DNA from: Bryobacteraceae bacterium
GTDB taxonomy: Bacteria; Acidobacteriota; Terriglobia; Bryobacterales; Bryobacteraceae
Direction of reading: 5' to 3'
NCBI GenBank assembly: GCA_030041495.1
Contig: JASHNT010000141.1
Span: 124,001-188,000 of the forward strand
Length of the DNA stretch: 64,000 nucleotides
Positions 10,174 to 31,970 of the stretch are shown piece by piece. The notes below the pieces were generated by a model. The model made no database searches. It saw only the letters and a program-made list of their open reading frames with translations, and was not told the origin of the DNA. The position numbers were made by a program, and so were the translations under genes. The first letter of the stretch is position 1. Each line of letters starts with the position of its first letter.

Positions 10174-11169
10174 ATGCCTTCACCATCCACTGTGCTGGTT
10201 ACCGGTGGCGCCGGCTACATCGGATCGCACACCGCCAAAGAACTCGCGCGCGCCGGGTATCGCGTCGTGAGTTACGACAACTTGAGCCGCGGCCATCGAT
10301 GGGCCGTGAAATGGGGACCGCTCGAAGAGGGAGACCTGCTCGATCAGGACCGGCTGCGCCAGGTTCTTGCCGCGCACAACGTGGACGCAGTGCTGCACTT
10401 CGCGGCCTTCGCCGAAGTCGGCGAATCCATGCGCGAGCCGGAGCTCTACTTCCGCAACAACGTCGCCGGCAGTTTGAGCCTGCTTGAAGCCATGCATCAC
10501 TCGGGCGTCCGCCGCATTGTATTCTCCTCTACCTGCGCGCTGTACGGCGTCCCCGAAACCGTGCCGATCACCGAAGATGTTCCCAAGGCGCCGGCCAATC
10601 CTTACGGCGAATCGAAGCTGATGGTGGAGAAAATGCTTCAGTGGGAAGGCGCGTGCCGCGCCTTACAATGGACGGCCCTGCGTTACTTCAACGCCGCCGG
10701 CTGCGATGCGGAGGGTGACACGGGCGAGTCGCATTCGCCCGAATCGCACCTGATTCCGTCGCTGCTCGAAGCCGCGCTCGGCAAGCGACCGGCGTGTCCC
10801 ATCTTCGGCAGCGACTACCCCACTCCCGACGGCACTTGCATCCGCGATTACATCCACGTCACCGACCTGGCCGATGCGCACGTGCGAGCATTGCGCCACC
10901 TGGAAAACGGCGGCGCGAGCATGGCCCTGAACCTCGGGACCGGCGACGGTTATTCGGTGAATCAGATTCTGGCCGCGGCTGAGAAGGTAGCCGGACGGCC
11001 GATTCCGATCGAGCGGCAGGGACGCCGTCCGGGCGATCCTCCCAAGTTGGTGGCCGCGCCGCAGAGAGCCTTCGCAACACTAGGATGGAAGCCTTCGCAT
11101 TCCTCCATCGACAATATCCTGGAAACCGCTTGGCGCTGGGCGGCTCAGCGATCGGCTTCCAACGCATAG
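10174..11169 (+). CDS. galE: UDP-glucose 4-epimerase
   Basis: GalE interconverts UDP-glucose and UDP-galactose with bound NAD. The 331 residues start with the nucleotide-binding GGAGYIGSHTAKEL. The catalytic Ser/Tyr/Lys are in FSSTCALYG and the YGESK (YxxxK) motif. Further family blocks are LRYFNAAGCD, DGTCIRDYIHVTDLADAH and LNLGTGDGYSVNQIL. The start at 10174 gives the expected N-terminus; a TACAGT box lies ten bases upstream, and the in-frame extension to 10057 has no family match. It overlaps the 3' end of the convergent transaldolase gene by 25 bp. It probably supplies galactose for the surface glycans assembled by the neighbouring cluster. Confidence 0.94.
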   Translation: MPSPSTVLVTGGAGYIGSHTAKELARAGYRVVSYDNLSRGHRWAVKWGPLEEGDLLDQDRLRQVLAAHNVDAVLHFAAFAEVGESMREPELYFRNNVAGSLSLLEAMHHSGVRRIVFSSTCALYGVPETVPITEDVPKAPANPYGESKLMVEKMLQWEGACRALQWTALRYFNAAGCDAEGDTGESHSPESHLIPSLLEAALGKRPACPIFGSDYPTPDGTCIRDYIHVTDLADAHVRALRHLENGGASMALNLGTGDGYSVNQILAAAEKVAGRPIPIERQGRRPGDPPKLVAAPQRAFATLGWKPSHSSIDNILETAWRWAAQRSASNA

Positions 11170-11855
11170 CCGGCGGCTTTGGCGTCGGCATGGAACATCT
11201 TCACCGTATCGAGCGAAAACTCGTCCAGATCCTTGCCAAGCGTGGGCATTTTTTTGAGGAGGTCGTGCGTGACGGTGATGATGTGGCAGCCGAGCGTGTC
11301 CGCCTGTACGATGTTGAACAGCTCGCGCGGGCTGGCCCAGATCAACTCGATTTGAGGATACCGGCGCAGGCGCTCGATCGCGGCGCACATCAGCGGCAAG
11401 GGATCGCAGCCGGCGTCGGCCACGCGGCCCGCGAAGATCGAAAGGTAACTGGGTGGGCCATCCTTCAAAAACGGCAGGACTGCGTCAACCTGGTCCAGAG
11501 TCATCATCGCCGTCACGTTCACCTTGACTCCTTGCCGGCTCAAACGGCCCGCCAAAGGAGCGCAGCTTTCGCGCCGTGTGTTGGTGATCGGGATTTTGAC
11601 GTAAATGTTCTCGCCCCACCCGGCGATCCGGAGGGCCTGCCGCTCCATTTCATCGAACTCGTCCGAGAAAACTTCAAAAGAGAACGGCCGATCCGGAATG
11701 GTGGCAACCAGATCCCGGCAGAAGCATTCGTAATCCTTGACGCCAGCCTTGCGCATCAAGGTCGGATTGGTGGTGAAACCTTGAATGAGCGGGTTGCGCG
11801 CCAGCTCCAGAATGGACGCCTTGTCGGCGCCATCGGCGAAAATTTTCACCCGCAT
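11145..11855 (-). CDS. transaldolase-family protein (Fsa/TalC type)
   Basis: This 236-residue protein has the small single-domain transaldolase / fructose-6-phosphate aldolase fold. Visible blocks are KIFADGADKASILELA, IQGFTTNPTLMRKAG, the Schiff-base lysine in NIYVKIPIT, VNVTAMMTLDQ, YLSIFAGRVADAG, and IELIWASPREL near the C-terminus. Transaldolases exchange dihydroxyacetone units among sugar phosphates, including sedoheptulose 7-phosphate, the substrate of the heptose pathway encoded by its neighbours. That link is inferred from context. The ATG at 11855 overlaps the gmhB-like 3' end by ten bases and is preceded by a GGAGGA ribosome-binding site. It is the last gene of the isomerase-epimerase-phosphatase operon. 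Confidence 0.85.
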   Translation of the reverse strand: MRVKIFADGADKASILELARNPLIQGFTTNPTLMRKAGVKDYECFCRDLVATIPDRPFSFEVFSDEFDEMERQALRIAGWGENIYVKIPITNTRRESCAPLAGRLSRQGVKVNVTAMMTLDQVDAVLPFLKDGPPSYLSIFAGRVADAGCDPLPLMCAAIERLRRYPQIELIWASPRELFNIVQADTLGCHIITVTHDLLKKMPTLGKDLDEFSLDTVKMFHADAKAAGYALEADR

Positions 11856-12418
11856 AAGAGTTCCTCCAGCCACAGCGTTGGAACGCGCGGGGCAGCGGCC
11901 AAAACCAGTTCGGCAGCTTCACGCAGCGACCTCACTGCGGTGAACGGCAGGTCCGGACGCCGCTCATTGTAGTGATAGTCGATGAACACGGCGCGGCAGC
12001 CCGCGCGCTGGGCGGCTTCGACGTCGCGCCAGCGGTCGCCAATGAAGTAACTAGCAGCAAGGTCGATCGCCCACTCGCGCGCCGCTTCCAGCAGCAGCCC
12101 CGGCTTGGGCTTGCGGCATTCGCAACCGTCAGCATCGTCATGCGGACAGACTTTGACGCCGTCTAGCGGAAGATAGCGGCGCAGGTGATCGTGCATTCGC
12201 GAGACCTCTCGAAGGTCGGCCGCGCCGCGCGCTATATCCGGCTGGTTCGTCGCCAGGATGAGAAGGTAGCCCGCTTCGCGCATGGCGCGGCAAGCCTCGC
12301 GCACGCCCGAAAGGATTCGCAACTCGTGCAGATGGCGCGGCGGGTAGGGCTTGCCGCCACGAATCAACGCCCGGTTGATGACTCCGTCGCGATCCAAAAA
12401 TACGGCGCGCCGCAGCAT
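11846..12418 (-). CDS. gmhB: D-glycero-D-manno-heptose-1,7-bisphosphate 7-phosphatase (HAD family)
   Basis: GmhB removes the 7-phosphate of heptose 1,7-bisphosphate during activated-heptose synthesis. The 190 residues are typical. The HAD nucleophile motif is AVFLDRDGVINRAL, motif II is LILATNQPDIARG, the zinc-binding loop is CPHDDADGCECRKPKPG (Cys-His ligands), and the acidic motif is SYFIGDRWRDVEAA. The ATG at 12418, eight bases after the SDR stop, gives the exact family N-terminus; the much longer in-frame extension lies antisense-like inside the SDR gene and is not real. The gene is co-oriented with the isomerase and epimerase genes. Confidence 0.93.
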   Translation of the reverse strand: MLRRAVFLDRDGVINRALIRGGKPYPPRHLHELRILSGVREACRAMREAGYLLILATNQPDIARGAADLREVSRMHDHLRRYLPLDGVKVCPHDDADGCECRKPKPGLLLEAAREWAIDLAASYFIGDRWRDVEAAQRAGCRAVFIDYHYNERRPDLPFTAVRSLREAAELVLAAAPRVPTLWLEELLCG

Positions 12419-12426
12419 GACTTTTC

Positions 12427-13407
12427 CTACGACTTCCCCTGCCGGACTTCGTTCAACAACGCCGTCATCGAGACACACAACGCCTGGCGGGAGGTGCGTT
12501 TCGAGGCCCAGCCCAGGCTCCTGATGCGGTCCGTGTTCAAGCGCACCACCGGCACGTCGCCCCTCCAGCCGCGATCTCCGCCGGTGTATTCGAAGCGCAC
12601 GCTGCCGGGCGCAAATCCGGCGACTTCCACGGCCAGCTCCGCGATCTCGGTCACGGTGATGTAGTCTCCCGTGGCTACGTTGAATACTTCGAAGGGTTGT
12701 TTGCGAGCGGAGTGAGCCGACAAAACGGCGCACACCACGTCGAAGACGTGGATGTAGCTCTTGCTCTGCGAGCCGTCGCCCAGGATGCGCAGCCGCGTGG
12801 GATCTTCTAGAAGGCGGCGCACGAAGTCGAACCCAACGCCGTGCGTCTGGCGGGGGCCGACCACGTTGCCGAAGCGGAACGCCGATGCGCGGATGCCGAA
12901 CATGGCGCAGTATGACGCGATCAGCGCCTCGCCCGCCAGCTTGCTTGCTCCGTAGGTGGAAACCGGAATCATCGGGGCATGATTTTCGCTCGCCTCGATT
13001 TCGCCCAGATCGCCGTAGACGCCGCTGCCGGATGCATACAGCAGGCGCGGCGTGCCGTTCATCCGCATGGCTTCCAGCACCTGCTGGGTGAGATAGGTGC
13101 CTTCACGAAAATCGATATCCGGCTCCGTCGCCGCGCGCGCGATGTCCGGATTGGAGGCGAGGTGAATTACCGTCTCATGGGTGCGCATGGCTTCCCGCAG
13201 CCAATCGAGGTCTTTGACGTCGCCGCGGACCACGCGCAGCCGATGGTCGCTCGCGTGGTGCGCGTAATGCCATTCCCGCCCGGAGGAGAAATTGTCGTAG
13301 AGCGTGACCAGCTCAGTGGCGGAATCCGCCAGCAAGCGGTCCGTGAAATGGCTGCCGATGAATCCCGCGCCGCCGACGATGAAGTAGCGGCCGAATATCG
13401 GGGTCAT
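12427..13407 (-). CDS. NAD-dependent sugar epimerase/dehydratase (extended SDR)
   Basis: The 326 residues contain the Rossmann motif VGGAGFIGSH, NFSSGREWHY, HLASNPDIARAATEP, a Ser catalytic site in YASGSGVYGD, the YGASKLAGEAL motif (Tyr and Lys), and FRFGNVVGPRQTHGVG. This is an extended short-chain dehydrogenase acting on a nucleotide sugar. Its substrate cannot be read from the sequence; its place between the SIS isomerase and GmhB suggests it modifies an activated heptose. The start at 13407 is chosen because its ATG overlaps the isomerase stop as ATGA; an in-frame ATG five codons upstream would lie inside the isomerase gene. Confidence 0.88.
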   Translation of the reverse strand: MTPIFGRYFIVGGAGFIGSHFTDRLLADSATELVTLYDNFSSGREWHYAHHASDHRLRVVRGDVKDLDWLREAMRTHETVIHLASNPDIARAATEPDIDFREGTYLTQQVLEAMRMNGTPRLLYASGSGVYGDLGEIEASENHAPMIPVSTYGASKLAGEALIASYCAMFGIRASAFRFGNVVGPRQTHGVGFDFVRRLLEDPTRLRILGDGSQSKSYIHVFDVVCAVLSAHSARKQPFEVFNVATGDYITVTEIAELAVEVAGFAPGSVRFEYTGGDRGWRGDVPVVRLNTDRIRSLGWASKRTSRQALCVSMTALLNEVRQGKS

Positions 13408-14138
13408 CGCAGGGACTCCCATTTAGTGCCGCGGCGCTGCAGCGCGGGGTGGCTCACCAGCAGATGCCACACCACGGCGCAGATTCCTTCGGTGTGCGGC
13501 GTGATTCGTTCCGGCGACGCGATCGGGACCACGATGCAGGATTCAGCGGTCTGACGCGTATAGCCCCCGTCGCGGCCGACGATTCCAAAGATACGCGCGC
13601 CCGCCTGCGAAGCCGTCTCCAGAGCCTTCACGATGTTGACCGAGACGTTCTTCTCGCGGTTCCCTCCGCCCACTGAAAACACCAGCACCGCGTCGGCCGC
13701 GGTAATCCGCGAACCCTCCAGCCACGCCGAAAAACAGGTATCCCAGCCTTCGTCATTGGCGCGCGCGGTCAGTTCGCTGACATTGTCGGTGGGAGCATAC
13801 GCCTCGAATCCGCATAGCTTGCGAAAGTCGTTCACCGCGTGCCCGGCGTGACCGGCCGAGCCTCCCACGCCCAGGATGAACAGTCGCCCGCCGCTTTCCC
13901 GCACATTTGCTAGCCCCGTCGCCATGGATTCGATTTCGTGCGCGTCCAGGCGGCGGAGGATATCGATGGCTTCCCCGAGATAGGCTGCCGCGAAGCTGAA
14001 GCTCGGCGCCGGTCCGGCGAGCGCCGTGGCCAGGTTGCTCAAGTCCGGATTCGCAGGAGGCTTAAGACTGCCGGGGTCAATTTGCCGCGCCGCCGGTTCC
14101 CGCAGGACGTGCACGCGGCTGTTGGTCAAGTTACTCAC
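13404..14138 (-). CDS. SIS-domain sugar-phosphate isomerase, GmhA-like
   Basis: This 244-residue protein has one SIS domain with the phosphosugar loop GVGGSAGHAGHAVNDFRK (about 92-109) and FSVGGGNREKNVSVNIVKAL. GmhA isomerises sedoheptulose 7-phosphate to D-glycero-D-manno-heptose 7-phosphate. Family members are about 190 residues; this one has an N-terminal extension of about 40 with no clear fold. Neighbouring genes for GmhB and an HddA-like kinase support the heptose assignment. The start is a GTG, after which the next gene begins by a four-base overlap. It is divergent from the kinase gene with 143 bp between them. Confidence 0.82.
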   Translation of the reverse strand: MSNLTNSRVHVLREPAARQIDPGSLKPPANPDLSNLATALAGPAPSFSFAAAYLGEAIDILRRLDAHEIESMATGLANVRESGGRLFILGVGGSAGHAGHAVNDFRKLCGFEAYAPTDNVSELTARANDEGWDTCFSAWLEGSRITAADAVLVFSVGGGNREKNVSVNIVKALETASQAGARIFGIVGRDGGYTRQTAESCIVVPIASPERITPHTEGICAVVWHLLVSHPALQRRGTKWESLR

Positions 14139-14270
14139 CTAATGGAGTTTCGACTGTAAGGCGTTAATTCTTTAGGAGCATCGGACCACTGCTGGAGCGA
14201 GTCGGGTGGTTCTCGCACAGGCACCTACAGAGAACAGCACCGGCTGGCGATTTAAAGACCAGGGCCGTTC

Positions 14271-14276
14271 TAAGGT
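14271..14276 (+). promoter_or_regulatory. putative -10 box of the HddA-like kinase gene
   Basis: TAAGGT ends five bases before the kinase ATG at 14282 and there is no ribosome-binding site, matching the leaderless pattern seen at other starts here. I see no good -35 box. The remaining 130 bases of this divergent gap hold no gene that I can support. Confidence 0.4.
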
Positions 14277-14281
14277 ACACG

Positions 14282-15262
14282 ATGCTCATCACCCGCACTC
14301 CACTCCGGATCTCCCTAGGCGGGGGTGGCACGGACCTGCCGTCGTACTACGAACAGTTTGGCGGCTACGTCGTTTCGGCCGCCATTTCGCAGTACATCTT
14401 CATCGGGATCAACCGCATGTTCAGCGACGGATACCTGCTGAAGTATTCCGCCTTGGAAAATCCCCAGCAAGTGGAGGAGATCAAACATCCCATCTTTCGC
14501 GAAGTCCTGCGCCGCCATAACGGCGAGGGGCACCTGGAAATCGCCAGCCTGGCGGACGTGCCGGCAGGAACCGGACTAGGGTCGTCAGGCACCTTCACGG
14601 TGGGCCTGCTCAAGGCCATGTACGCGTTCAAGCGTCACCCCGCGGCGCCGGAGGTTCTGGCGGAGGAAGCCTGCGACATCGAAATCAACGTGCTCAAGCG
14701 CGCCATCGGCAAACAGGATCAATACATCGCGGCTTTCGGCGGGGTAACCTGCTTCGACTTCCGGCCGGATGGAACCGTTGGCGTCGAGCCGTTGAAAATT
14801 TCCAACGATACGCTGCTCGACCTGGAGCACAATCTACTGATGTTTTTCACCGGTTATTCGCGCCATTCGATCGGAGTGCTGGCCGACCAGCATGAGCGCT
14901 CCCGACAGGGCGACCGCAGCATGCTGGAAAATCTGCACTTCACTAAACAGCTTGGCCTGTCGGCCAAAGAGGCTCTGGAAGGCGGCAAGACGCGGTGCTA
15001 TGCGGAACTGATGAAGGAGCACTGGGAGCACAAGCGCGCGCGGTCGCAGGGCATGACCAACGAAAACATCGACCGCTGGTATGAAGCCGGCATGCGCAAC
15101 GGCGCGCTGGGCGGCAAACTGGTGGGCGCGGGAGGCGGAGGCTACCTGCTGTTCTACGCCGACGATCCCATGCGCGTTCGCCGCGCCATGGCTACCGAAG
15201 GCTTGAGCGAGTTGCGCTTCAGGTTCGATCACGACGGATCCACTGTGCTGGTGCGCGACTGA
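14282..15262 (+). CDS. hddA: GHMP kinase, D-glycero-alpha-D-manno-heptose-7-phosphate kinase (HddA-like)
   Basis: HddA phosphorylates heptose 7-phosphate at the anomeric carbon in the alpha configuration, feeding GDP-heptose synthesis. The 326 residues match the family: N-terminal RTPLRISLGGGGTDLPSYYE, GHMP motif 2 DVPAGTGLGSSGTFTVGLL, a substrate block IGKQDQYIAAFGG, and motif 3 GKLVGAGGGGYLLFY near the C-terminus. It is divergent from the SIS isomerase gene, the usual partner. The alpha-specific nucleotidyltransferase HddC is absent from the window, so the pathway is completed elsewhere or uses another enzyme. It converges on the third GT-C gene with a ten-base gap. Confidence 0.88.
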   Translation: MLITRTPLRISLGGGGTDLPSYYEQFGGYVVSAAISQYIFIGINRMFSDGYLLKYSALENPQQVEEIKHPIFREVLRRHNGEGHLEIASLADVPAGTGLGSSGTFTVGLLKAMYAFKRHPAAPEVLAEEACDIEINVLKRAIGKQDQYIAAFGGVTCFDFRPDGTVGVEPLKISNDTLLDLEHNLLMFFTGYSRHSIGVLADQHERSRQGDRSMLENLHFTKQLGLSAKEALEGGKTRCYAELMKEHWEHKRARSQGMTNENIDRWYEAGMRNGALGGKLVGAGGGGYLLFYADDPMRVRRAMATEGLSELRFRFDHDGSTVLVRD

Positions 15263-15271
15263 AGCGCTCGC

Positions 15272-16891
15272 TTAGCGCCGCTCCGGATAGGGAATCAACC
15301 TCAGAGGTTGCTTGTCAGGCTCGAGGAGCCACGCCTTGCGGTCCGGATAATAGCGGAGCAATTCCTGGTCCTGGGCCGGATCATCCATAGCGCGTGCCCA
15401 GACCGTTTGCGAGGCATCGATGTCCGCGCGGTTCCAGACCCATTCGTCGTGCACGCGGTGGTCCGGCGCGTAGCGCACGAATACCAATTGCTTGCCCGGC
15501 ATCCGCGCTAATTCCTGTGCGATCTGGTTGCGAGCAAGCGCGAACGGCGAGACCTCGACCCCCAGCCGGAACAAGACGGAAAAACTAGCCGCAAATTGGT
15601 ACACGAGCAGCGCCACGAGCAGACCGGCGAGCGCCGGGCCAAGAGATTTGCCAGCCGGGCGCCACGAGTTTAGCCGCGACAGGGTCTGGAGGAAACGCGC
15701 ATAGAGCAGCCCAGCGACGGGCGCCGCATAGTGGGCGTAAAAGACGGTCTGAGGCGCGATGGCCACGAGCAAGAACACCGCAAGCAGCAGCACCGCAGCA
15801 CGCTCCTGCCGGCTCCTGAGGGCGTACGGCCAGACCAGCGCCGGGATGAGGGCCGGCCAAAGTCCGAAGAGAAAGTTGTACACCTCCGAAAGCCTCTCCA
15901 GGGCCGCACTGAGCGGGTCCCTGCGGGTAGCGCGCCATTCCTCCAGGTAGAACCCGGAAAAGAGGTCCCGCATCATGGCGTGGCGATACGCCGGCTCTGG
16001 ACGGAGCGGGAGAAACACGAAGTCCGGGCGGGGATTGTACTGCCTGTCGTACAAGGTGTGCGGCATCGTCAGCGGGTCCCCGGTAACGCGGTGGTCGACG
16101 TAGGCCACCGCCCCGAGGGCCGCCAGCAGAATCGGCAGCGAGGGGGCGGCCCTGCAAAGAAGGGGCGCGCGGGCTCCGGCTGGAAGCCGCCGCAGAGTCC
16201 AGGCGAGCAGGGCTACGGCCTCCGCGCCGAGCACGAAGCCTTCCCAGGGCCGCGAGTGCATGAGGATCGCGAGGCCGCCGGCCAGCGTGATCCAGTCCAT
16301 GGTCCGCTGTCCCCGCCAGATTCGCACAATGGCACCCAGCACCAGTGCGCCGCCGATGGCAGGCACCGCCCCCCCCCAGTAGGAGTTCATCCAGTATCCG
16401 AAGATTCCGCAGTGCAGTGCGAACAGGAGCCCTCCCAGGAAGGCGAGGTTGGCGTTGACCCATCCGTACAGCATCCAACAAACCGCCGCGCACATCAGGC
16501 CCGCACTTAGATACACGCCGACCCAGGGCTGACCGAAGAACCTTTCTCCGAACGCGAGCATTATCCCTTGCAAGGCCGGGTACTTTGACGCGTAGGTTGG
16601 CTGCATCAGCTCATGCTCCGTCTCGAAGTGCTGCCACATGGGATGGGCCGGGTTCGTGAGGCGGCCAGAAGCATAGGTGTCCCCGGCAAGCAGGTAGCTG
16701 AACTCGTCGTCGATGGTCGGCAGGGGAGGCGGATCCCAAGGCAGCAGGGCCGCGCGAATTCCCAGCGTCAAGAAAAGCACCACCGCGCAGGCAAGCAGCT
16801 CTCGCTCCGCGACCCAGGCGAAGCCCTGGAGCAGGCGCGAGGAAAAGGACGGCGCGCGGCCAATACTGGTATCCACAAGAGCGAGGGTCAT
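15272..16891 (-). CDS. GT-C-type membrane glycosyltransferase (third of three paralogues)
   Basis: The 539-residue polytopic membrane protein has about ten hydrophobic helices. After the first helix comes TIDDEFSYLLAGDTYASGRL with an acidic DE pair, as in GT-C enzymes (PMT, ArnT), which use polyprenyl-phosphate sugars on the outer membrane face; that mechanism is inferred. Further shared blocks are WQHFETEHELMQPTYASKYP, YWMNSYWGGAVPAIGGALVL and LMHSRPWEGF. The soluble C-terminus holds RYAPDHRVHDEWVWNRADID and a final RLIPYPERR. The ATG at 16891 overlaps the preceding paralogue's stop as ATGA; a 23-codon in-frame extension is rejected for that reason. Confidence 0.82.
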   Translation of the reverse strand: MTLALVDTSIGRAPSFSSRLLQGFAWVAERELLACAVVLFLTLGIRAALLPWDPPPLPTIDDEFSYLLAGDTYASGRLTNPAHPMWQHFETEHELMQPTYASKYPALQGIMLAFGERFFGQPWVGVYLSAGLMCAAVCWMLYGWVNANLAFLGGLLFALHCGIFGYWMNSYWGGAVPAIGGALVLGAIVRIWRGQRTMDWITLAGGLAILMHSRPWEGFVLGAEAVALLAWTLRRLPAGARAPLLCRAAPSLPILLAALGAVAYVDHRVTGDPLTMPHTLYDRQYNPRPDFVFLPLRPEPAYRHAMMRDLFSGFYLEEWRATRRDPLSAALERLSEVYNFLFGLWPALIPALVWPYALRSRQERAAVLLLAVFLLVAIAPQTVFYAHYAAPVAGLLYARFLQTLSRLNSWRPAGKSLGPALAGLLVALLVYQFAASFSVLFRLGVEVSPFALARNQIAQELARMPGKQLVFVRYAPDHRVHDEWVWNRADIDASQTVWARAMDDPAQDQELLRYYPDRKAWLLEPDKQPLRLIPYPERR

Positions 16892-18513
16892 TGCGAAATG
16901 GTCTCCTTGCCCGGATAAGGGATCAGCCTCGGCGGCGAAGCATCGGCCTCCAGCACCCACGCCTGGCGATCGCGATAGTAGGCGAGTAGCTCCGCGTCAC
17001 GCTGCGCGCCCATTTCGTGCGCCCAGATAATCGGCGACGCATCGATATCCGCCCGGTTGTAAATCCACTCTTCGTGGACCTTATGTTGCGGAGTGTAGCG
17101 CACCAGAACCAGTTGCTTGCCCGGCTCATGCTCCAATTGCCGGATCACCGCGGCGCGCTTCACCGTGAATTCGGACACGGGCGGGCGTTCGCGGACGAAG
17201 AACGTGAACGTGCTCACGAACTGGTAGCCACACAAGGTGACGAAGAACACCGCCACAGCGAAACCCACGGGCCTTCCTGACGGCCGCCAGTGGTACAGCC
17301 GCGACAGGGTTTGCAGAAAACGCGCGTACAACAGGCCGACGATCGGAGCAGCATAATGCGGCTCATTGCCGATCAGAGGGAGCAGCGCGATCACGATGAA
17401 TCCGGCCAGCAGCCAAACCGTCAGCCGTTCCTCGGCGCTTTGAAAGCGATACGGCCAGATCAGCGGAAAGACCAATACCGGCCATAACCCGAAAAAGAAG
17501 TTGTACAGGTCAGACAGTTTCCCTAGGGCTGAATTCAGGACGTCGGTCCGAGTGGTCCGCCATTGCCAGACGTTCCAACCGGTGAAGACCTCGCGGATGG
17601 AAGCGTGCCGGTAAGCCGGCTCCGGGCGCAGCGGCAGGAATCCAAAGATCGGCGCGACTGCGTACTGCTGGTCGTACAAAGCGTGCGGCATGACGAGCGG
17701 ACTGCCCGTGACACGGTAGTCGACGTAGGCAACCGCGCCGAGGGAAACCAGGAGAACGGCCACGGCCGGTATCGCCACACGCCTGCTTTGCGCGCGCAGA
17801 GCGGCCGGAAATTTGCGCCACATCCAAGCGAGCATCACCAAAGCCAGCGCGCCCAACACTGCGCCTTCCCATGGCCGCGAGTGCATCAGAATCGCCAGAC
17901 CGGCCGCGGCAGCCATCAAATGCCCGGACTGCCCGCGCCGCCACACACGAATGAGCCCGCCCAGCACCAGCGCGCCGCCGATCGCCGGGACGGCTCCGCC
18001 CCAGTACGAGTTCATCCAATAACTGAAGATGCCGACGCGCAGCATGAACAGAATCGCGCCTAACAGCGCTGCGTTGGCTCCAAGCCAGCCCTGCAGCATC
18101 CAGCACACAAAGAAGCACATCAGGCCCGCGCTTAAGAACACGCCCACCCACGGCTGGTGGAAGAATTTCTCACCGAACGCCAACACCAGGCCTTGCAGCG
18201 GAGGGTACTTCGAGGCGTAGACCGGCTGCATCAACTCATGGATGGTCTCGAAGTGCTGCCACATGGCAGGGGTCGGATTCGCCAAGCGCCCGTGAGCGTA
18301 GGTATCGCCCGCGAGCAGATAACTGAACTCATCGTGCGCCGTCGGCTCAGGTACCGGAAATACCGGAAGCAGCGCGGCCCGAATCCCCAGGGTCAACACC
18401 AGCACCACCGAACACGCTAGTAAATCTCGCCGTGCGATCGACTCATAAGCCCGAAGCAGGCTGTGCCACAAGCCACGGGTCTCGACCGGCGCTGGAATCG
18501 AAATGGTGCTCAC
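16888..18513 (-). CDS. GT-C-type membrane glycosyltransferase (second of three paralogues)
   Basis: The 541-residue polytopic protein is closely related to both neighbours. It has TAHDEFSYLLAGDTYAHGRL after the first helix, WQHFETIHELMQPVYASKYP, YWMNSYWGGAVPAIGGALVL and LMHSRPWEGAVLG, then the outer C-terminal segment RYTPQHKVHEEWIYNRADID and LIPYPGKE. The GTG at 18513 is taken as the start because it overlaps the preceding stop codon as GTGA, matching local habit; the first in-frame ATG would be 26 codons upstream inside the neighbouring gene. The donor and acceptor cannot be read from sequence. The EEW and RADID blocks are shared by all three paralogues and may form the acceptor site. Confidence 0.82.
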   Translation of the reverse strand: MSTISIPAPVETRGLWHSLLRAYESIARRDLLACSVVLVLTLGIRAALLPVFPVPEPTAHDEFSYLLAGDTYAHGRLANPTPAMWQHFETIHELMQPVYASKYPPLQGLVLAFGEKFFHQPWVGVFLSAGLMCFFVCWMLQGWLGANAALLGAILFMLRVGIFSYWMNSYWGGAVPAIGGALVLGGLIRVWRRGQSGHLMAAAAGLAILMHSRPWEGAVLGALALVMLAWMWRKFPAALRAQSRRVAIPAVAVLLVSLGAVAYVDYRVTGSPLVMPHALYDQQYAVAPIFGFLPLRPEPAYRHASIREVFTGWNVWQWRTTRTDVLNSALGKLSDLYNFFFGLWPVLVFPLIWPYRFQSAEERLTVWLLAGFIVIALLPLIGNEPHYAAPIVGLLYARFLQTLSRLYHWRPSGRPVGFAVAVFFVTLCGYQFVSTFTFFVRERPPVSEFTVKRAAVIRQLEHEPGKQLVLVRYTPQHKVHEEWIYNRADIDASPIIWAHEMGAQRDAELLAYYRDRQAWVLEADASPPRLIPYPGKETISQ

Positions 18514-20096
18514 CGGCGAGCTTCCTTTTCCACATCGACTGCCGGATACGGCTCCAGCGACGGCGGAGTGCGATCCGGCTGGACTAGCCACACCCGGCGA
18601 TCATGAAAATATTCGAGGAAGGGCCGGTCGTGTCCCGGATCCATTTCACGGGCCCAGACCACCTTGGAGCCGTCGATATCGGCGGCGTTGAACACCCACT
18701 CCTCCTGCGGGTTGTGCCCGGCGGCGTAGCGGACCAGCACGAGTTGTTTTCCCGGCAAAGCCTCCAAGCGCCGTTGCATCTCCGCGCGAGCCTCGCCAAA
18801 ATGAGCCGAGCGGCTGGCGAGCACTTGGCTGAAACTATCGCGGCCGCTCAGGACAAACAGGGCGACCGCGGCCACCGCCGCGGCCTTCCCCCAAGGCTTG
18901 CGCAAGGAGCTGAGACCGGCGAGACCGTCCAGAAATCGCACGTAAAACACTCCGGCAAAACCGGCAGCGTAGTGGGGAAGAACCCCGATCAGCGGAGTGA
19001 TCGAAAGAATCGCGGCGCCCATCAGCGCCAGTGAGACGCGGCTCATCGCGTTGGCAGTGGGCCACAGAAGCAGAGGAATCATCAGCGGCCAGGCTCCAAA
19101 AAAGAAGCTGACCACGATGTAGATTCGTGCCAGCCATTGCACCACGGGCTCGGCGTGCGACCCCTTCCACAGCTTGACGTCCCAACCGGTGTAGAAATCG
19201 CGCATCACGGCATGGTGGTAGACCGGTTCCGGCGCCAGGGGCAGGAACACGAACATGGAAGCCACTTCATACTGCCGGCTGTTCATCTGATAGGGAAGCG
19301 TCATCGCGTGGCCGGTGACGCGAATATCGTCATAATCGACCGCCGCCAGAGCCAGCGCCAGCACCGCGGCCGCCGGCAACGCAGTCCGCAGCAATGCCGG
19401 CCCAAGCGAGACCTCCGACCTACGCAGCAGCCATAAAAACGCGAGCCCGCTGCTGATCGCCACCACCATCGCGTCATACGGCCGCGAAAGGATCATCACG
19501 GAGATCCCCAGGGCCCAGGTCACCGAGTGCCGGTATTCGCGCTGTTGTGCGATGCGCGCCACCGCGCCGAACGCCAGCGCTCCTCCGATGGCGGGTACGG
19601 CTCCGCCTTCAAACGAATTCATCCAGTAGCTCAGCACGCCGATCCGGACGCTGAACAGCAGCGCGCCCAGCAATGCCCACTCCGCCGAAACCCAGCCTTG
19701 CAGCATCCAGCACACGGCCGCGCACATCAACGCGGAGCTCAATGCCGCGCCGATCCACGGTTGATGGAACAGCACCTCGCCCACGGCCAAAACCATGCCT
19801 TGCAGAGGCGGATATTTCGAGGAATAAGACGGCTGCTGAATTTCCTGAAATGTTTCGAAGTGCTGCCAGAACGGATGCGGCGGATTGGTGAGGCGGCCGT
19901 GCGCATATGTGTCGCCTGCCAGGAGGTAACTGAATTCGTCGTGGATGACCGGGTTCGGCACACCCAACCACGGCTGAAGCGCGAAGCGCAGGGTCAGGGT
20001 CAGCAGAAAGACAGCGGCACAGGCCAGACCCCGCCGGCGCGAGAAACTCGACCACGCTCCGAGCAGTCGCGGCACAAGCGTGGGTGTGGCTTTCAC
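18510..20096 (-). CDS. GT-C-type membrane glycosyltransferase (first of three paralogues)
   Basis: The 528-residue polytopic protein starts at a GTG (20096). After the first helix it has VIHDEFSYLLAGDTYAHGRL with Asp53-Glu54 as the likely catalytic pair, then WQHFETFQEIQQPSYSSKYP and YWMNSFEGGAVPAIGGALAF. It lacks the HSRPWEG block of its siblings and has LSRPYDAMV instead, so it is the most divergent. The C-terminal RYAAGHNPQEEWVFNAADID is conserved. The gene leads a run of three, each overlapping the next by four bases. It lies 49 bp after the 5' end of this run's flank, just downstream of the methyltransferase gene. Heptose and epimerase genes next door suggest a cell-surface glycan. Confidence 0.82.
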   Translation of the reverse strand: MKATPTLVPRLLGAWSSFSRRRGLACAAVFLLTLTLRFALQPWLGVPNPVIHDEFSYLLAGDTYAHGRLTNPPHPFWQHFETFQEIQQPSYSSKYPPLQGMVLAVGEVLFHQPWIGAALSSALMCAAVCWMLQGWVSAEWALLGALLFSVRIGVLSYWMNSFEGGAVPAIGGALAFGAVARIAQQREYRHSVTWALGISVMILSRPYDAMVVAISSGLAFLWLLRRSEVSLGPALLRTALPAAAVLALALAAVDYDDIRVTGHAMTLPYQMNSRQYEVASMFVFLPLAPEPVYHHAVMRDFYTGWDVKLWKGSHAEPVVQWLARIYIVVSFFFGAWPLMIPLLLWPTANAMSRVSLALMGAAILSITPLIGVLPHYAAGFAGVFYVRFLDGLAGLSSLRKPWGKAAAVAAVALFVLSGRDSFSQVLASRSAHFGEARAEMQRRLEALPGKQLVLVRYAAGHNPQEEWVFNAADIDGSKVVWAREMDPGHDRPFLEYFHDRRVWLVQPDRTPPSLEPYPAVDVEKEARR

Positions 20097-20145
20097 ACCC
20101 TTAGATCGTCTGACCGGGTCGAAAGCTTAATACTTCGCTGCGCGG

Positions 20146-20865
20146 TCAGACTCCCGGCTTCACCACCATGCATTGCGTGTAGGCTAAAGGGAAGACGGCC
20201 ACATTCCTATCCGAGAAAAACTCGTCGAATGCCCGCGACACACCCGGCGAGCTGGAATAGTCGTGCGAAATCAGAGCTCCTCCTGGAGTCAGTCTCGGCC
20301 AGAAGAAATCCAGGCCGCTCAGCGTACTCTCATACAGATCCACGTCCAGATGCACAAATGAGAATCGCACTTCCCGGACTGGCTCCGCTGTTTCCGGGAA
20401 GAGCCCCTTATAGAAGTGAAGATTCTGATAGGGCTTCAGATATCCTTTCACGTCTTCCAGCGACGACTTGTACGCCCCTTCGTAAAAGGCCTCGTCGTTT
20501 CCGGAAGGTTTCGGGAGGCCTTCAAAGGTGTCGAACAAATGAAACGGCTTGCCGGGCTCCGCCTCACGGATTATGCGTGATGACGCTCCCCGGTAGACGC
20601 CGACTTCCGCGATATGTCCGGGTATCTTTGCAAGCGCTCGCACGGTCCTGTAGATCTGAGCGCCTTCCACGTTGCTGAGCAGGGTGTCGCGCTCTTGCGA
20701 TATCCGCTTGATCAGGTCCGACAACTGCCGGTCGTCGTCGAATGACGCCGGGATCAGCTGCATGTTCGACGCGCGCTCGAATGCCTGAATAGCGAAGCGC
20801 CGCACTGGTCTCATAAATCCAATGCTCGCGATCCGGCGGAGAACTTTCTTGCCAGGTTGATGCAT
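20146..20865 (-). CDS. TylF/MycF-family O-methyltransferase
   Basis: These SAM-dependent enzymes methylate sugar hydroxyls; family members act on macrolide sugars and on polysaccharides. The 239 residues contain a SAM-binding segment IAEVGVYRGASSRIIR, an acidic loop HLFDTFEGLPKPSG, the metal-binding FVHLDVDLYESTLSGLDFFW, and LTPGGALISHDYSS followed by the family end ARAFDEFF-like (SRAFDEFFSD). The start is uncertain: ATG 20865 is used, ATG 20814 is possible, and the region upstream belongs to the FKBP gene. It lies between that gene and the GT-C run and could methylate the glycan that the cluster builds. Confidence 0.83.
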   Translation of the reverse strand: MHQPGKKVLRRIASIGFMRPVRRFAIQAFERASNMQLIPASFDDDRQLSDLIKRISQERDTLLSNVEGAQIYRTVRALAKIPGHIAEVGVYRGASSRIIREAEPGKPFHLFDTFEGLPKPSGNDEAFYEGAYKSSLEDVKGYLKPYQNLHFYKGLFPETAEPVREVRFSFVHLDVDLYESTLSGLDFFWPRLTPGGALISHDYSSSPGVSRAFDEFFSDRNVAVFPLAYTQCMVVKPGV

Positions 20866-31000: not shown

Positions 31001-31455
31001 GCGAGCCGGCGGTAATAGGCCGCGTCGTGCACGCGCAACAACGCGGAGCCGACCGGCGCGATGGTGATGGGCGCGGTGCCCGTGGCCATGCGCCACAGCC
31101 CGATCGCACGCTGCTCGGCGATCTCGGTATGCGGCGAAAGCTTCTGCCCAGGCAGCACGTCCCAGGCGGGCAAAAGCTGCGGGCGGCCGGCTTCCGCGCG
31201 CGCGATCAGCAAGCCGAAGAACGCCTCGCACAGCTCGGTCAACAATTCCGCGCGCTGGTTGCCGTCGGCCAGCACGAGAAGAGGCTTTTCCGTCGCCTGC
31301 CAGGCCAGCACCAAATACAAAGCCTTGGCAGCCGGAGTCAGCCCGGAAAGCGCGAGGGGCCCAAGCTCCCTCCGCACCAGCTTGGCGATCAGGTCCTGAA
31401 ACGCCTCATGCCGATTCAGCGTGTGGAACAGATCGCGGACCGCCGGATGGGTCAC
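28051..31455 (-). CDS. mfd: transcription-repair coupling factor Mfd
   Basis: Mfd displaces RNA polymerase stalled at DNA lesions and recruits UvrA. The 1134-residue protein has the full layout. The N-terminal UvrB-homology region includes DVLPGQKLSPHTEIAEQRAI. The polymerase-interacting and CarD-like domain carries LKPGDYVVHATHGIGRFAGL. The RecG-like translocase has Walker A CGDVGFGKTEVAM (about 621-633), DEEQ (about 722) and RVGRSNRRAYAYLL. The TRCF C-terminal domain ends with the autoinhibitory D7 segment. The GTG start at 31455 is chosen because it overlaps the rfaE2 stop as GTGA; an ATG 15 codons upstream overlaps rfaE2 by 49 bases. Confidence 0.96.
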   Translation of the reverse strand: MTHPAVRDLFHTLNRHEAFQDLIAKLVRRELGPLALSGLTPAAKALYLVLAWQATEKPLLVLADGNQRAELLTELCEAFFGLLIARAEAGRPQLLPAWDVLPGQKLSPHTEIAEQRAIGLWRMATGTAPITIAPVGSALLRVHDAAYYRRLALDLRVAEELPLDAIEAHLQSIGYSRRDPVEMVGEYSVRGGILDVYGAESARPLRVEFFGDEIESIRRFEVESQRSVMKLSEAQILPLTEQPRSQDQNIFPGWEFSAALSEPRPQSLLDLATDAIVILDEPEQLKSAAERIWKRLDQLQAPELAEANVFAGEPFESGVASHPCVELRELDLDPTHPRIATRPSLAFHGNMQVAIAEARTMVEQGYRVAFFAPTAGELERLADILREYSVPFQLGLAPDEAASPYLAERAYLAGPVASTYLIKGLVRRGVVFPDSQVAFIGMEDLFDVSEMVARPGATKKQLAAFASDLADLKPGDYVVHATHGIGRFAGLREIVQGEQKGDFMLLEYAADAKLYVPLTRMDLVEKYRGGGDAAPPLDKLGGASWTAKKSRVKAKMRDMADELLKLYAERRMAEGFAFSPDSNWQREFEDSFEFAETKDQLQATKEIKRDLESPHPMDRLLCGDVGFGKTEVAMRAAFKALGDGKQVAVLAPTTVLALQHYETFKRRFAAFPVRVEMFSRLTPAKEMKASIEDLVEGKVDIAIGTHRLFSKDIQFRDLGLLIVDEEQRFGVRHKERLKQLRTNVHVLAMSATPIPRTLHMSLLGIRDMSVIETPPKDRLAIHTVVAHFEPELIRAALEQELSRGGQVYFIHNRVDSIFARAAWIQELVPGCRVGVGHGQLDEKELERVLLAFMHHEFDVLVCTTIAENGLDIPLANTMVIEHAERYGLSELYQLRGRVGRSNRRAYAYLLVPQDTELAEIARKRLAALREFSDLGAGFKIAALDLELRGAGNLLGGEQHGHIEAVGFDTYLRLLEETIQDLKGEERPLEVHSALNLGLDIRIPAEYIADEQQRLRAYKRIADIRDLEEAGKIRADLADRYGPAPEAVETLVQFALLKTKAQHVGVEAIDRRSGALNIKFHPASKIEPARLMALVSHNAGAQFTPAGVLRLPLPAHSEKPAAVLSFAKESLDSLA

Positions 31456-31970
31456 GGCCGGCGCTGCGAGACCGCCGCTTCTTGTGAACCCGCCGCGCAA
31501 GGTTGCCGGGCCAGAAGCTCCTTTTCGATATTAGTGGTGGAAAAACCGGGCTCGAGTGAAAGCAGCACCACCTTGCCGCCCGCGGCCTCCACCTCTTCCC
31601 TGCCCGCGACGAAATGCGCCCAGTCCGCGCCTTTGATAAGAATGTCCGGCAGAATCTCCGCGATCAACTCGCGCGGTGTATCTTCGTCGAACAGAACCAC
31701 AGCGTCTACTGCTTCGAGCGACGCCGCCATGCGGGCGCGCTCCATCTCCGGAATCAGCGGGCGCGACGGACCCTTGAGCCGGGCGACGCTCGCATCGGTG
31801 TTCAACGCAAGAATCAGCACATCGCCCAAGGAGCGCGAGCGCTCCAGCAAGCGGATGTGGCCGGGATGCAGCAGGTCGTAACAGCCGTTGGTGAAGACGA
31901 CGGTCTGGCCCGCGGCTCGCCACCGCGCGCGGGCTTCCTTGAGCTCCGAACGAGTATAGAAAACTCCCAT
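31452..31970 (-). CDS. rfaE2: D-glycero-beta-D-manno-heptose 1-phosphate adenylyltransferase
   Basis: This enzyme forms ADP-heptose from heptose 1-beta-phosphate and ATP, equal to the C-terminal half of E. coli HldE. The 172 residues have the cytidylyltransferase-fold signature VVFTNGCYDLLHPGHIRLLE, NTDASVARLKGPSRP, the RPLIPEMERARM region, DEDTPRELIAEILPDILIKG and a GGKVVLLSLEPGFSTT ending. Unlike E. coli HldE there is no kinase half, so the kinase must be separate. ATG 31970 is used; MSCVEW at 32000 is possible. The gene leads the mfd operon, 17 kb from the heptose cluster. Confidence 0.92.
   Translation of the reverse strand: MGVFYTRSELKEARARWRAAGQTVVFTNGCYDLLHPGHIRLLERSRSLGDVLILALNTDASVARLKGPSRPLIPEMERARMAASLEAVDAVVLFDEDTPRELIAEILPDILIKGADWAHFVAGREEVEAAGGKVVLLSLEPGFSTTNIEKELLARQPCAAGSQEAAVSQRRP

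Follow-up and report, generated by a model that had tools for sequence, protein, structure and literature searches.

Why would a gene cluster that reads as a heptose phosphate operon encode its own transaldolase? The question is raised by a Bryobacteraceae locus within a stretch of 64,000 nucleotides, hereafter the window. An earlier note on this DNA had described genes for a SIS isomerase, an SDR, GmhB and a transaldolase tightly packed opposite an HddA-like kinase gene, and gene calls and coordinates agree with that layout (Table 1). The four genes overlap or are separated by a few bases, and the kinase gene is divergent. At the left end of the range, the GalE and transaldolase genes are convergent and their 3' ends overlap; GalE probably lies outside the module.

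Table 1. Genes of the locus, with the matches on which their assignment is based (core, core gene of the module)
Product	Position	Strand	Evidence
GalE, UDP-glucose 4-epimerase	10174..11169	+	TIGR01179, 422 bits (cut-off 262)
TIGR02134-family transaldolase, 236 aa (core)	11145..11855	-	320 bits (cut-off 282)
HAD-IIIA sugar bisphosphate phosphatase, GmhB/LmbK-like (core)	11846..12418	-	TIGR01656, 125 bits (84)
Extended SDR (NAD epimerase/dehydratase)	12427..13422	-	PF01370, 153 bits
SIS-domain ketose/aldose phosphate isomerase, lengthened serine loop (core)	13404..14138	-	PF13580
GHMP kinase, HddA/LmbP-like anomeric (core)	14282..15262	+	PF00288, PF08544
GT-C-like polytopic membrane protein 1	15272..16891	-	7 hydrophobic segments; 48% and 61% identity to the other two
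GT-C-like polytopic membrane protein 2	16888..18510	-	hydrophobic-segment scan, paralogy
GT-C-like polytopic membrane protein 3	18510..20096	-	hydrophobic-segment scan, paralogy
TylF-type methyltransferase	20146..20811	-	PF05711, 69.6 bits
RfaE2-like adenylyltransferase	31452..31967	-	TIGR02199, 174.1 bits (cut-off 181.5)

Recurrence of the gene set

Loci were fetched by the transaldolase, giving 80 from 18 named phyla. The same SIS isomerase is encoded in 72 of them, the HAD phosphatase in 59, the kinase in 54 and an HddC-like nucleotidyltransferase in 52; all five genes stand in one order in 35. In loci fetched this way the median gap between transaldolase and SIS genes is 568 bases, and an SDR gene also lies between SIS and HAD in seven. 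Across 97 loci examined, Gfo/Idh genes were found in 53, UDPGDH-type genes in 24 and extended SDR genes in 67 (GalE type included). The rows aligned were taken from tblastn matches after removal of any that contained a stop or were shorter than the length limit; 3 of the 13 loci L039–L051 gave no row, and the module rows include two near-duplicate pairs (L054/L117 and L086/L095).

The transaldolase also co-occurs with the kinase, as the earlier note had proposed to check. All ten genomes whose kinase match reaches 50% identity or more (the window's own genome included) have a transaldolase over cut-off, versus 5/40 genomes whose best kinase match is 32–46% identical. The transaldolase is a real and recurrent part of such operons, and its recurrence beside the same SIS gene in 72 of 80 loci speaks against chance placement. 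In an Actinomycetota sample drawn via L124, one of 296 genomes exceeded the transaldolase cut-off, L124 itself.

The earlier note had further linked a triplet of GT-C glycosyltransferases to the module as users of its product. The three membrane proteins are paralogs (46–61% identical, with 6–7 hydrophobic segments each by a simple scan) and have no Pfam or NCBIfam match at E 0.001, so the GT-C label here denotes hydropathy and an acidic first-loop motif alone, the motif being what we take as a GT-C mark. A neighbour like the first of them occurs in just 2 of the 80 loci, which rules out the triplet as a conserved partner.

Insertions in the isomerase and transaldolase

For comparison we used clusters from 392 genomes of a Streptomyces-like genus, five of which gave a transaldolase match of more than 60 bits and none a match over cut-off. 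All five matches lie in clusters ordered HAD, DH, SDR, SIS, Gfo/Idh, kinase, nucleotidyltransferase, DegT-type aminotransferase, transaldolase. By gene content, with hallmark genes present, L154/L155 and L156 are lincosamide clusters. L157–L159 have the sugar genes and a 53–55% identical aminotransferase, with a 33–35% identical glycosyltransferase in two of the three and an Aminoglyc_resit-family gene in L158 and L159; within 20 kb they gave no match to the other five lincosamide hallmark proteins tried.

The window isomerase is a remote match to the GmhA model and falls short of the equivalog (52.6 bits; cut-off 209.45). Its serine loop has 16 residues, versus 10 in all 34 GmhA-type controls; the loop measures 14–16 residues in 87/87 module isomerases, 16–19 in the five Streptomyces-type rows and 16 in the intermediate row G095. 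Two lengthened loops are common to the module and the five comparison rows (two of them true lincosamide) and absent from the 34 controls; one module row has a serine loop of 14 residues and one a second loop of 7. It is in the serine-loop stretch that we place the putative phosphate-binding residues of GmhA. An AlphaFold2 model of the window protein has the GmhA/DiaA fold (Z about 21–22), and a tree of 40 hand-picked rows gave no firm branching order for module, lincosamide-type and GmhA-type isomerases. GmhA-type isomerases are encoded separately in the same genome. Among 99 genomes of the phylum, the class scoring 43–58 bits against GmhA occurs in eight, namely the seven with a transaldolase over cut-off and an eighth whose cluster contains a relative scoring 126 bits. 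Judged by its sequence, the module isomerase is not GmhA.

The transaldolase had been described as Fsa/TalC-type, an assignment that does not hold: it scores 72 bits against the FSA/TalC equivalog (cut-off 246) and passes TIGR02134 instead. The Schiff-base lysine is present, together with a 4-residue insert. In E. coli FsaA positions 59 and 131 are Gln and Tyr, residues that mark FSA activity; 97/97 module rows have Glu and Phe there, which rules out FSA identity. Glu59 and Phe131 are as in ordinary FSA/TalC-type rows, whereas lincosamide-type rows have Gln59 and Leu131. The insert is found in all 97 module transaldolases, in the five Streptomyces-type rows and in G095, versus 0/11 FSA/TalC/TalB rows. 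Mean identity of the module enzyme is 27.9% to lincosamide-type rows and 29.3% to FSA/TalC rows. The outside group of its tree (47 rows) was nine FSA/TalC-type rows plus FsaA, without TalB.

Relatives of the phosphatase, kinase and nucleotidyltransferase

The window phosphatase scores 126 bits against the GmhB equivalog PRK08942 (cut-off 178). It is 44–48% identical to its homologues in the five Streptomyces-type clusters (47–48% for the two true lincosamide clusters) and 37% identical to the HAD protein of contig C52, where the same genome carries a second SIS/HAD/kinase/nucleotidyltransferase cluster, one that manages without a transaldolase. In the HAD tree (31 rows), the lincosamide rows are weakly placed (84), with three of the five comparison sequences falling outside. 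All trees were built by quick searches from rows picked by hand and have few starred branches.

The kinase falls below the HddA equivalog (169.5 bits; cut-off 600). Since the C52 kinase also fails it, at 146 bits, that cut-off is narrow. Among solved structures, the best matches to the window kinase are one putative sugar kinase and two chains labelled as heptose kinases. HddC had been reported missing, and none was seen beside the kinase in the window; the genome nevertheless encodes HddC-like nucleotidyltransferases on contigs C52 and C73 (98 and 78 bits; HddC cut-off 300), so the absence does not extend to the genome. The C73 gene, an orphan, belongs to the nucleotidyltransferase clade of the module and groups with clusters lacking the inserted SDR (27 rows). 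In the kinase (28 rows) and nucleotidyltransferase trees, the C52 heptose-like proteins, not the lincosamide-type ones, are nearer the module (100* and 96*).

RfaE2 had been placed at 31.5 kb, and a gene slightly under its cut-off is present there. That this gene, about 17 kb off, belongs to the same route is not supported, and it is rejected as a part of the module: an RfaE2 match occurs in 3/80 loci, and in the one checked, L121, it is half of a two-domain, HldE-like protein close to the core. The draft genome (98% complete) has four PfkB-family genes, and an RfaE1/HldA kinase was not found among them.

Candidate products

To our knowledge, lincosamide octose synthesis is the sole described pathway with the same enzyme set. 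The first six enzyme classes of the lincomycin/celesticetin octose pathway, LmbR-LmbN-LmbP-LmbK-LmbO-LmbM(-LmbL-LmbZ), match the module one for one, and of the lincosamide-type five-gene set four genes lie in the window and the nucleotidyltransferase on another contig. LmbL- and LmbZ-like genes stand beside the module in other loci; for three proteins of L126 (Gfo/Idh, UDPGDH-type, nucleotidyltransferase), a solved-structure search had no lincosamide enzyme among the matches listed. In published accounts, LmbR, LmbN, LmbK and LmbO have been shown and LmbP predicted, and the octulose is made from ribose 5-phosphate (among PMC4351081, PMC5854111, PMC12945683). Because of the same enzyme set and the insertions in common (seen with homologues from Streptomyces-type clusters rather than published Lmb sequences), we propose, with about an even chance of being right, that transaldolase and isomerase form a dedicated supply of a ketose phosphate, likeliest octulose 8-phosphate, ending in an NDP-octose.

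With fructose 6-phosphate (or sedoheptulose 7-phosphate) as donor, the transaldolase would transfer a dihydroxyacetone unit to an aldose phosphate, of which ribose 5-phosphate is the likeliest. The resulting ketose phosphate would be one that the cell does not maintain by other means, in all likelihood octulose 8-phosphate. The isomerase encoded alongside would turn this into an aldose phosphate, the GHMP kinase would add the anomeric phosphate, and the HAD phosphatase would take off the terminal one. An HddC-like nucleotidyltransferase, here moved to C73, would then yield the NDP-octose, to be reshaped by the SDR and transferred to a surface glycan. Each reaction is putative, and so are the length of the carbon chain, the identity of the nucleotide, the part played by the C73 orphan and the delivery of the sugar to a glycan. 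Counting against an octose are the kinship of kinase and nucleotidyltransferase with C52, the ordinary transaldolase active site, the low mean identity to lincosamide-type proteins (28–40%, most parts other than the HAD about 30%) and a nucleotidyltransferase outside the operon. So do the three of five comparison clusters without a hallmark beyond sugar genes, aminotransferase and, in two, glycosyltransferase, and the failure to see Gfo/Idh or UDPGDH-type genes in the window's first 25 kb. The module further differs from lincosamide clusters in its spread over 18 named phyla, and carrier-protein, amide and sulfur genes were not seen with it.

The earlier note had the transaldolase feeding a heptose route with sedoheptulose 7-phosphate. 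In refined form, sedoheptulose 7-phosphate made locally would become NDP-D-glycero-D-manno-heptose (or an epimer) through SIS, kinase, phosphatase and an HddC-like enzyme, which we regard as doubtful. The module has the isomerase, kinase, phosphatase and nucleotidyltransferase classes of the GDP-heptose pathway, the kinase and nucleotidyltransferase trees join it with C52 against lincosamide-type rows, and the active site of the transaldolase is of ordinary type; kinase and HAD match heptose-pathway models, but SIS, HAD, kinase and C73 nucleotidyltransferase all stay below equivalog cut-offs. The GDP-heptose pathway, however, lacks the transaldolase, as does the C52 cluster, and sedoheptulose 7-phosphate should already be present, given a second, longer PF00923 protein on contig C133, presumably the housekeeping transaldolase. 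The SIS and transaldolase insertions are unlike GmhA and FSA: the isomerase lies outside the GmhA-type rows, and its serine loop, the stretch in which we place the putative phosphate-binding residues, differs from all the controls. GmhA itself carries residues thought to bind phosphate (PMC5387315). The RfaE/HldE route resembles the locus in the RfaE2-like gene and the L121 protein, and differs in that a GHMP kinase stands in place of RfaE1.

It is improbable that the transaldolase makes some different unusual ketose phosphate (a heptulose that differs in configuration, or, with another acceptor, a C6 or C9 sugar) and that the module produces its sugar nucleotide. Acceptor specificity is not readable from sequence, and the core, found near an RfaE2/HldE-like protein as well, may serve more than one product; but no such described pathway was among the matches listed in the literature search (open-licence papers), and the nearest described relative makes a C8 sugar. 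A housekeeping pentose phosphate transaldolase in the operon by chance is very improbable, for although NCBIfam names the family just 'transaldolase' (after, we presume, staphylococci without another transaldolase), the recurrent SIS neighbour and the other PF00923 protein contradict it.

Even if the product were a heptose, the transaldolase would be dedicated to the pathway and tied to one isomerase clade, an arrangement that was not among the matches listed in our search of open-licence papers; no listed title or opening of an abstract reported this module. Linear octoses are known to us from antibiotics only. Should an octose be the product, they would be commonly used units of bacterial glycans, the dedicated transaldolase that supplies them would be recognisable by its sequence, and many 'heptose' annotations would have to be corrected. 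It is also conceivable, at slightly less than an even chance, that bacteria of at least 18 phyla, with Rhizobium, Polynucleobacter, Acidobacteriota and Pelagibacteraceae among them, use a transaldolase route to make NDP-octoses for surface glycans, and that the lincomycin sugar route is a specialised branch of it. Octose enzymes would then stand behind many annotations as heptose enzymes and 'transaldolase', and an octose product would point to a possible origin of the lincomycin octose genes.

The window operon and its conserved module

The tightly packed SIS isomerase, SDR, HAD phosphatase and transaldolase genes, described in an earlier note as lying opposite an HddA-like kinase, are present in Pfam and NCBIfam scans, as is a divergent GHMP kinase; with start codons checked, adjacent genes of this compact run overlap or are separated by a few bases. 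The kinase is followed by three polytopic membrane proteins (46–61% mutual identity) and then a TylF-type methyltransferase, and GalE is convergent with the transaldolase. The Fsa/TalC-type label given to the transaldolase in that note did not hold: the protein fails the FSA equivalog (72 bits, cut-off 246) and passes TIGR02134 in the NCBIfam scan (320 bits, cut-off 282). The window SIS, HAD, kinase and SDR reach no heptose equivalog cut-off in the same scan. By eye, positions 6285–10006 encode a tandem pair of TolC-like outer membrane proteins, both long (606 and 634 aa).

Genes of the SIS–transaldolase operon and the neighbouring kinase
Feature	Position	Strand or orientation	Basis
SIS	13404–14138	minus	Pfam and NCBIfam scans
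SDR	12427–13422	minus	Pfam and NCBIfam scans
HAD	11846–12418	minus	Pfam and NCBIfam scans
Transaldolase	11145–11855	minus	Pfam and NCBIfam scans
GHMP kinase	14282–15262	divergent from the SIS-SDR-HAD-transaldolase run	

TIGR02134 was matched over its cut-off in 17 of 297 genomes of the phylum (307–364 bits; next match 126). The other 16 neighbourhoods contain SIS in 14 cases, HAD in 11 and kinase in 10 (two contigs end early). Co-occurrence of transaldolase and kinase, a check proposed earlier, was borne out: the transaldolase was found in 10/10 genomes with a kinase match of at least 50% identity versus 5/40 with a best match of 32–46% (Fisher p = 3e-7, genomes counted as independent and kinship ignored). 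A scan of named genomes with the transaldolase returned at least 572 relatives, and the best 80 were kept for locus counts. These 80 loci, from 18 named phyla plus one record without phylum, contain SIS (72), HAD (59), kinase (54) and a nucleotidyltransferase of the type found on contig C73 of the same genome as the window (52); the best SDR match was to that of contig C52 in 39 and to that of the window in 14. Thirty-five of the 80, across nine named phyla, have their genes in the order kinase-nucleotidyltransferase-SIS-HAD-transaldolase, and seven show the window order SIS-SDR-HAD-transaldolase. Two of the eight loci lacking SIS (L070, L124) reach the contig end on that side. The records are mostly MAGs, whose taxon labels may err; the module also occurs in isolates, e.g. 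Rhizobium tubonense and Rhodoblastus sphagnicola. The conserved module ties the transaldolase to a distinct SIS clade (support 100), in a tree that leaves the branching among lincosamide-type and GmhA rows without resolution. The cluster is patchy even inside the genus. The sample includes two further members of this genus, G187 and G289; neither has a transaldolase over the cut-off or a kinase match.

Comparison with lincosamide octose enzymes

Parts of the lincomycin literature (PMC4351081, PMC5854111, PMC12945683) describe an octose route using a transaldolase, an SIS isomerase, a GHMP kinase, a HAD phosphatase and a nucleotidyltransferase. There, LmbR forms an octulose from ribose 5-phosphate and either fructose 6-phosphate or sedoheptulose 7-phosphate; LmbN is the octulose 8-phosphate isomerase, LmbK the C8 phosphatase, LmbO the C8 guanylyltransferase, LmbP the predicted C8 kinase, LmbM an epimerase, LmbL a dehydrogenase, LmbZ an oxidoreductase and LmbS a PLP enzyme. 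Among 392 genomes of one Streptomyces-type genus, TIGR02134-like matches were found in six, none over the cut-off and one a 21-bit scrap. The other five neighbourhoods all show the positional order HAD, UDPGDH-type, SDR, SIS, Gfo/Idh, kinase, nucleotidyltransferase, a stretch of ~1.2 kb containing an aminotransferase, transaldolase, with HAD on the opposite strand in L154 and L156 and further genes between Gfo/Idh and kinase in L154. Gene content identifies L154/L155 (adenylation domain, PIG-L amidase, salicylate synthase) and L156 (TldD, rRNA methylase, mycothiol-isomerase-like genes) as lincosamide clusters. The remaining three (L157–L159) matched just two of the seven lincosamide hallmark proteins searched for, the aminotransferase in all three and the glycosyltransferase in two, with no match to the other five, and they are therefore classed as sugar clusters; lincosamide-type refers here to all five clusters together. 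They possibly make an undescribed amino-octose product. All three hold a full octose-like gene set, and two have an Aminoglyc_resit-family gene beside the transaldolase.

The SIS serine loop has 16 residues in 86/87 module rows (14 in the other), 16–19 in 5/5 lincosamide-type rows, 16 in an intermediate cluster of genome G095, and 10 in 34/34 GmhA-type rows, 30 of them the best matches of a GmhA search in 99 genomes. A second loop has 15 residues in 86/87, 5/5 and 1/1 of these groups, respectively, and 11–12 in all 34 GmhA-type rows. For GmhA, binding of the substrate phosphate has been tentatively assigned to three serines and one threonine, with E65 suggested as the base and H180 as the acid (PMC5387315). 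Module isomerases (E. coli numbering) have S119, V120, G121, S124 and D65 in 87/87 and H180 in 86, and lincosamide-type rows have S, V, H and S at the corresponding sites plus D65, a residue that is not diagnostic since two of three other GmhA-like rows in that alignment share it. The AlphaFold2 model of the window SIS (pLDDT 84) matches GmhA and DiaA structures (Z about 21–22).

A four-residue insert after the Schiff-base lysine is present in 97/97 module transaldolases, 5/5 lincosamide-type rows and the G095 row, and absent from 11/11 FSA/TalC/TalB rows. These three groups split from nine FSA/TalC-type rows plus FsaA in the transaldolase tree (support 99); mean identity of module transaldolases is 27.9% to lincosamide-type versus 29.3% to FSA/TalC rows. 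Module and lincosamide-type rows are alike in the lengthened SIS loops and the insert. They differ in that module transaldolases carry Glu/Phe, as in FSA/TalC-type rows, whereas lincosamide-type enzymes have Gln/Leu, and in the kinase and nucleotidyltransferase trees, where lincosamide-type rows stand apart (100 and 96) and the C52 proteins lie nearer the module. In the HAD tree, the two true lincosamide rows fall on the module side with weak support (84) and the other three outside. Overall, sequence comparison favours, but does not prove, the view that the module's isomerase and transaldolase share an origin with their lincosamide counterparts.

Among the GmhA-model matches listed for 99 genomes of the phylum, eight scored 33–70 bits, and they lie in G095 and the seven genomes that have the transaldolase over the cut-off. 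The G095 cluster may bridge the module and the lincosamide type. Its locus (L164:5600–10400) encodes a module-type SIS (58% identical) and a 126-bit transaldolase with the insert.

Related genes elsewhere in the genome

The source genome is a 6.1-Mb draft (144 contigs, 98% complete). The HddC called missing in the earlier note has two candidates elsewhere in the genome: among the proteins behind the 11 stretches matched by PF00483, two are HddC-like by length and model. The one on C52 has SIS, HAD, kinase and SDR genes within about 5 kb, and no transaldolase match in the 19 kb fetched. The other, on C73, has no other module genes in its 19 kb and falls inside the module nucleotidyltransferase clade (support 95), among clusters without an SDR between SIS and HAD. 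It looks as if it were a remnant of another cluster copy. By eye, this orphan (L020:9327–10025) sits between PQQ-type dehydrogenase-like genes. RfaE1 was not found among the four PF00294 genes (hexose kinase/1-phosphofructokinase type, KDG-kinase type, ThiD and an unassigned kinase scoring 29 bits against an RfaE1 cut-off of 345). The apparent mismatch between an alpha-specific kinase and a beta-specific nucleotidyltransferase therefore need not come from this operon. An RfaE2-like gene lies at window positions 31452–31967. GmhA-like SIS genes on C2 and C52 score 122–123 bits (cut-off 209), and PF00923 has a single further match, a longer protein on C133.

Locus variants and the likely product

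An RfaE2 match follows the cluster in three of the best 80 loci. In L121 it is part of a 520-residue HldE-like protein (12799–14358) beside SIS-HAD-transaldolase, with the reversed order of nucleotidyltransferase domain first and PfkB kinase second. Five ORFs of the locus set match both nucleotidyltransferase and SIS families; in L053:10101–10904, a C-terminal nucleotidyltransferase stretch is in frame with SIS. Beside the inserted-SDR variant, L069:4946–6262 (Pfam assignment), and also L068, L080 and L087, encode a flavin-containing amine-oxidase-type and a glycosyltransferase-like protein; our guess is a UDP-galactopyranose-mutase-like role. No published account of the module was found among the matches listed in the open-licence literature.

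The transaldolase product would be the substrate of the SIS isomerase. Octulose 8-phosphate is its likeliest identity, at about even confidence, because the nearest characterised relatives act on C8 sugars and because sedoheptulose 7-phosphate, the second likeliest product and the entry to a heptose route, should exist without this transaldolase. Judging from the enzyme classes, the ketose phosphate would then be isomerised, phosphorylated at its anomeric position, dephosphorylated and linked to a nucleotide; the module product need not be the lincosamide sugar.

A count of neighbouring genes over 97 loci, which include some near-duplicates and comprise 96 fetched neighbourhoods and the window's first 25 kb, found Gfo/Idh/MocA oxidoreductases in 53, short SDRs in 42 and UDP-glucose-dehydrogenase-type proteins in 24. 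In R. tubonense, all three precede the core together with a family-2 glycosyltransferase, a methyltransferase and a GtrA-type protein, which suggests sugar transfer via a lipid-linked form. Such a lipid-linked sugar would suit membrane glycosyltransferases like those of the window.
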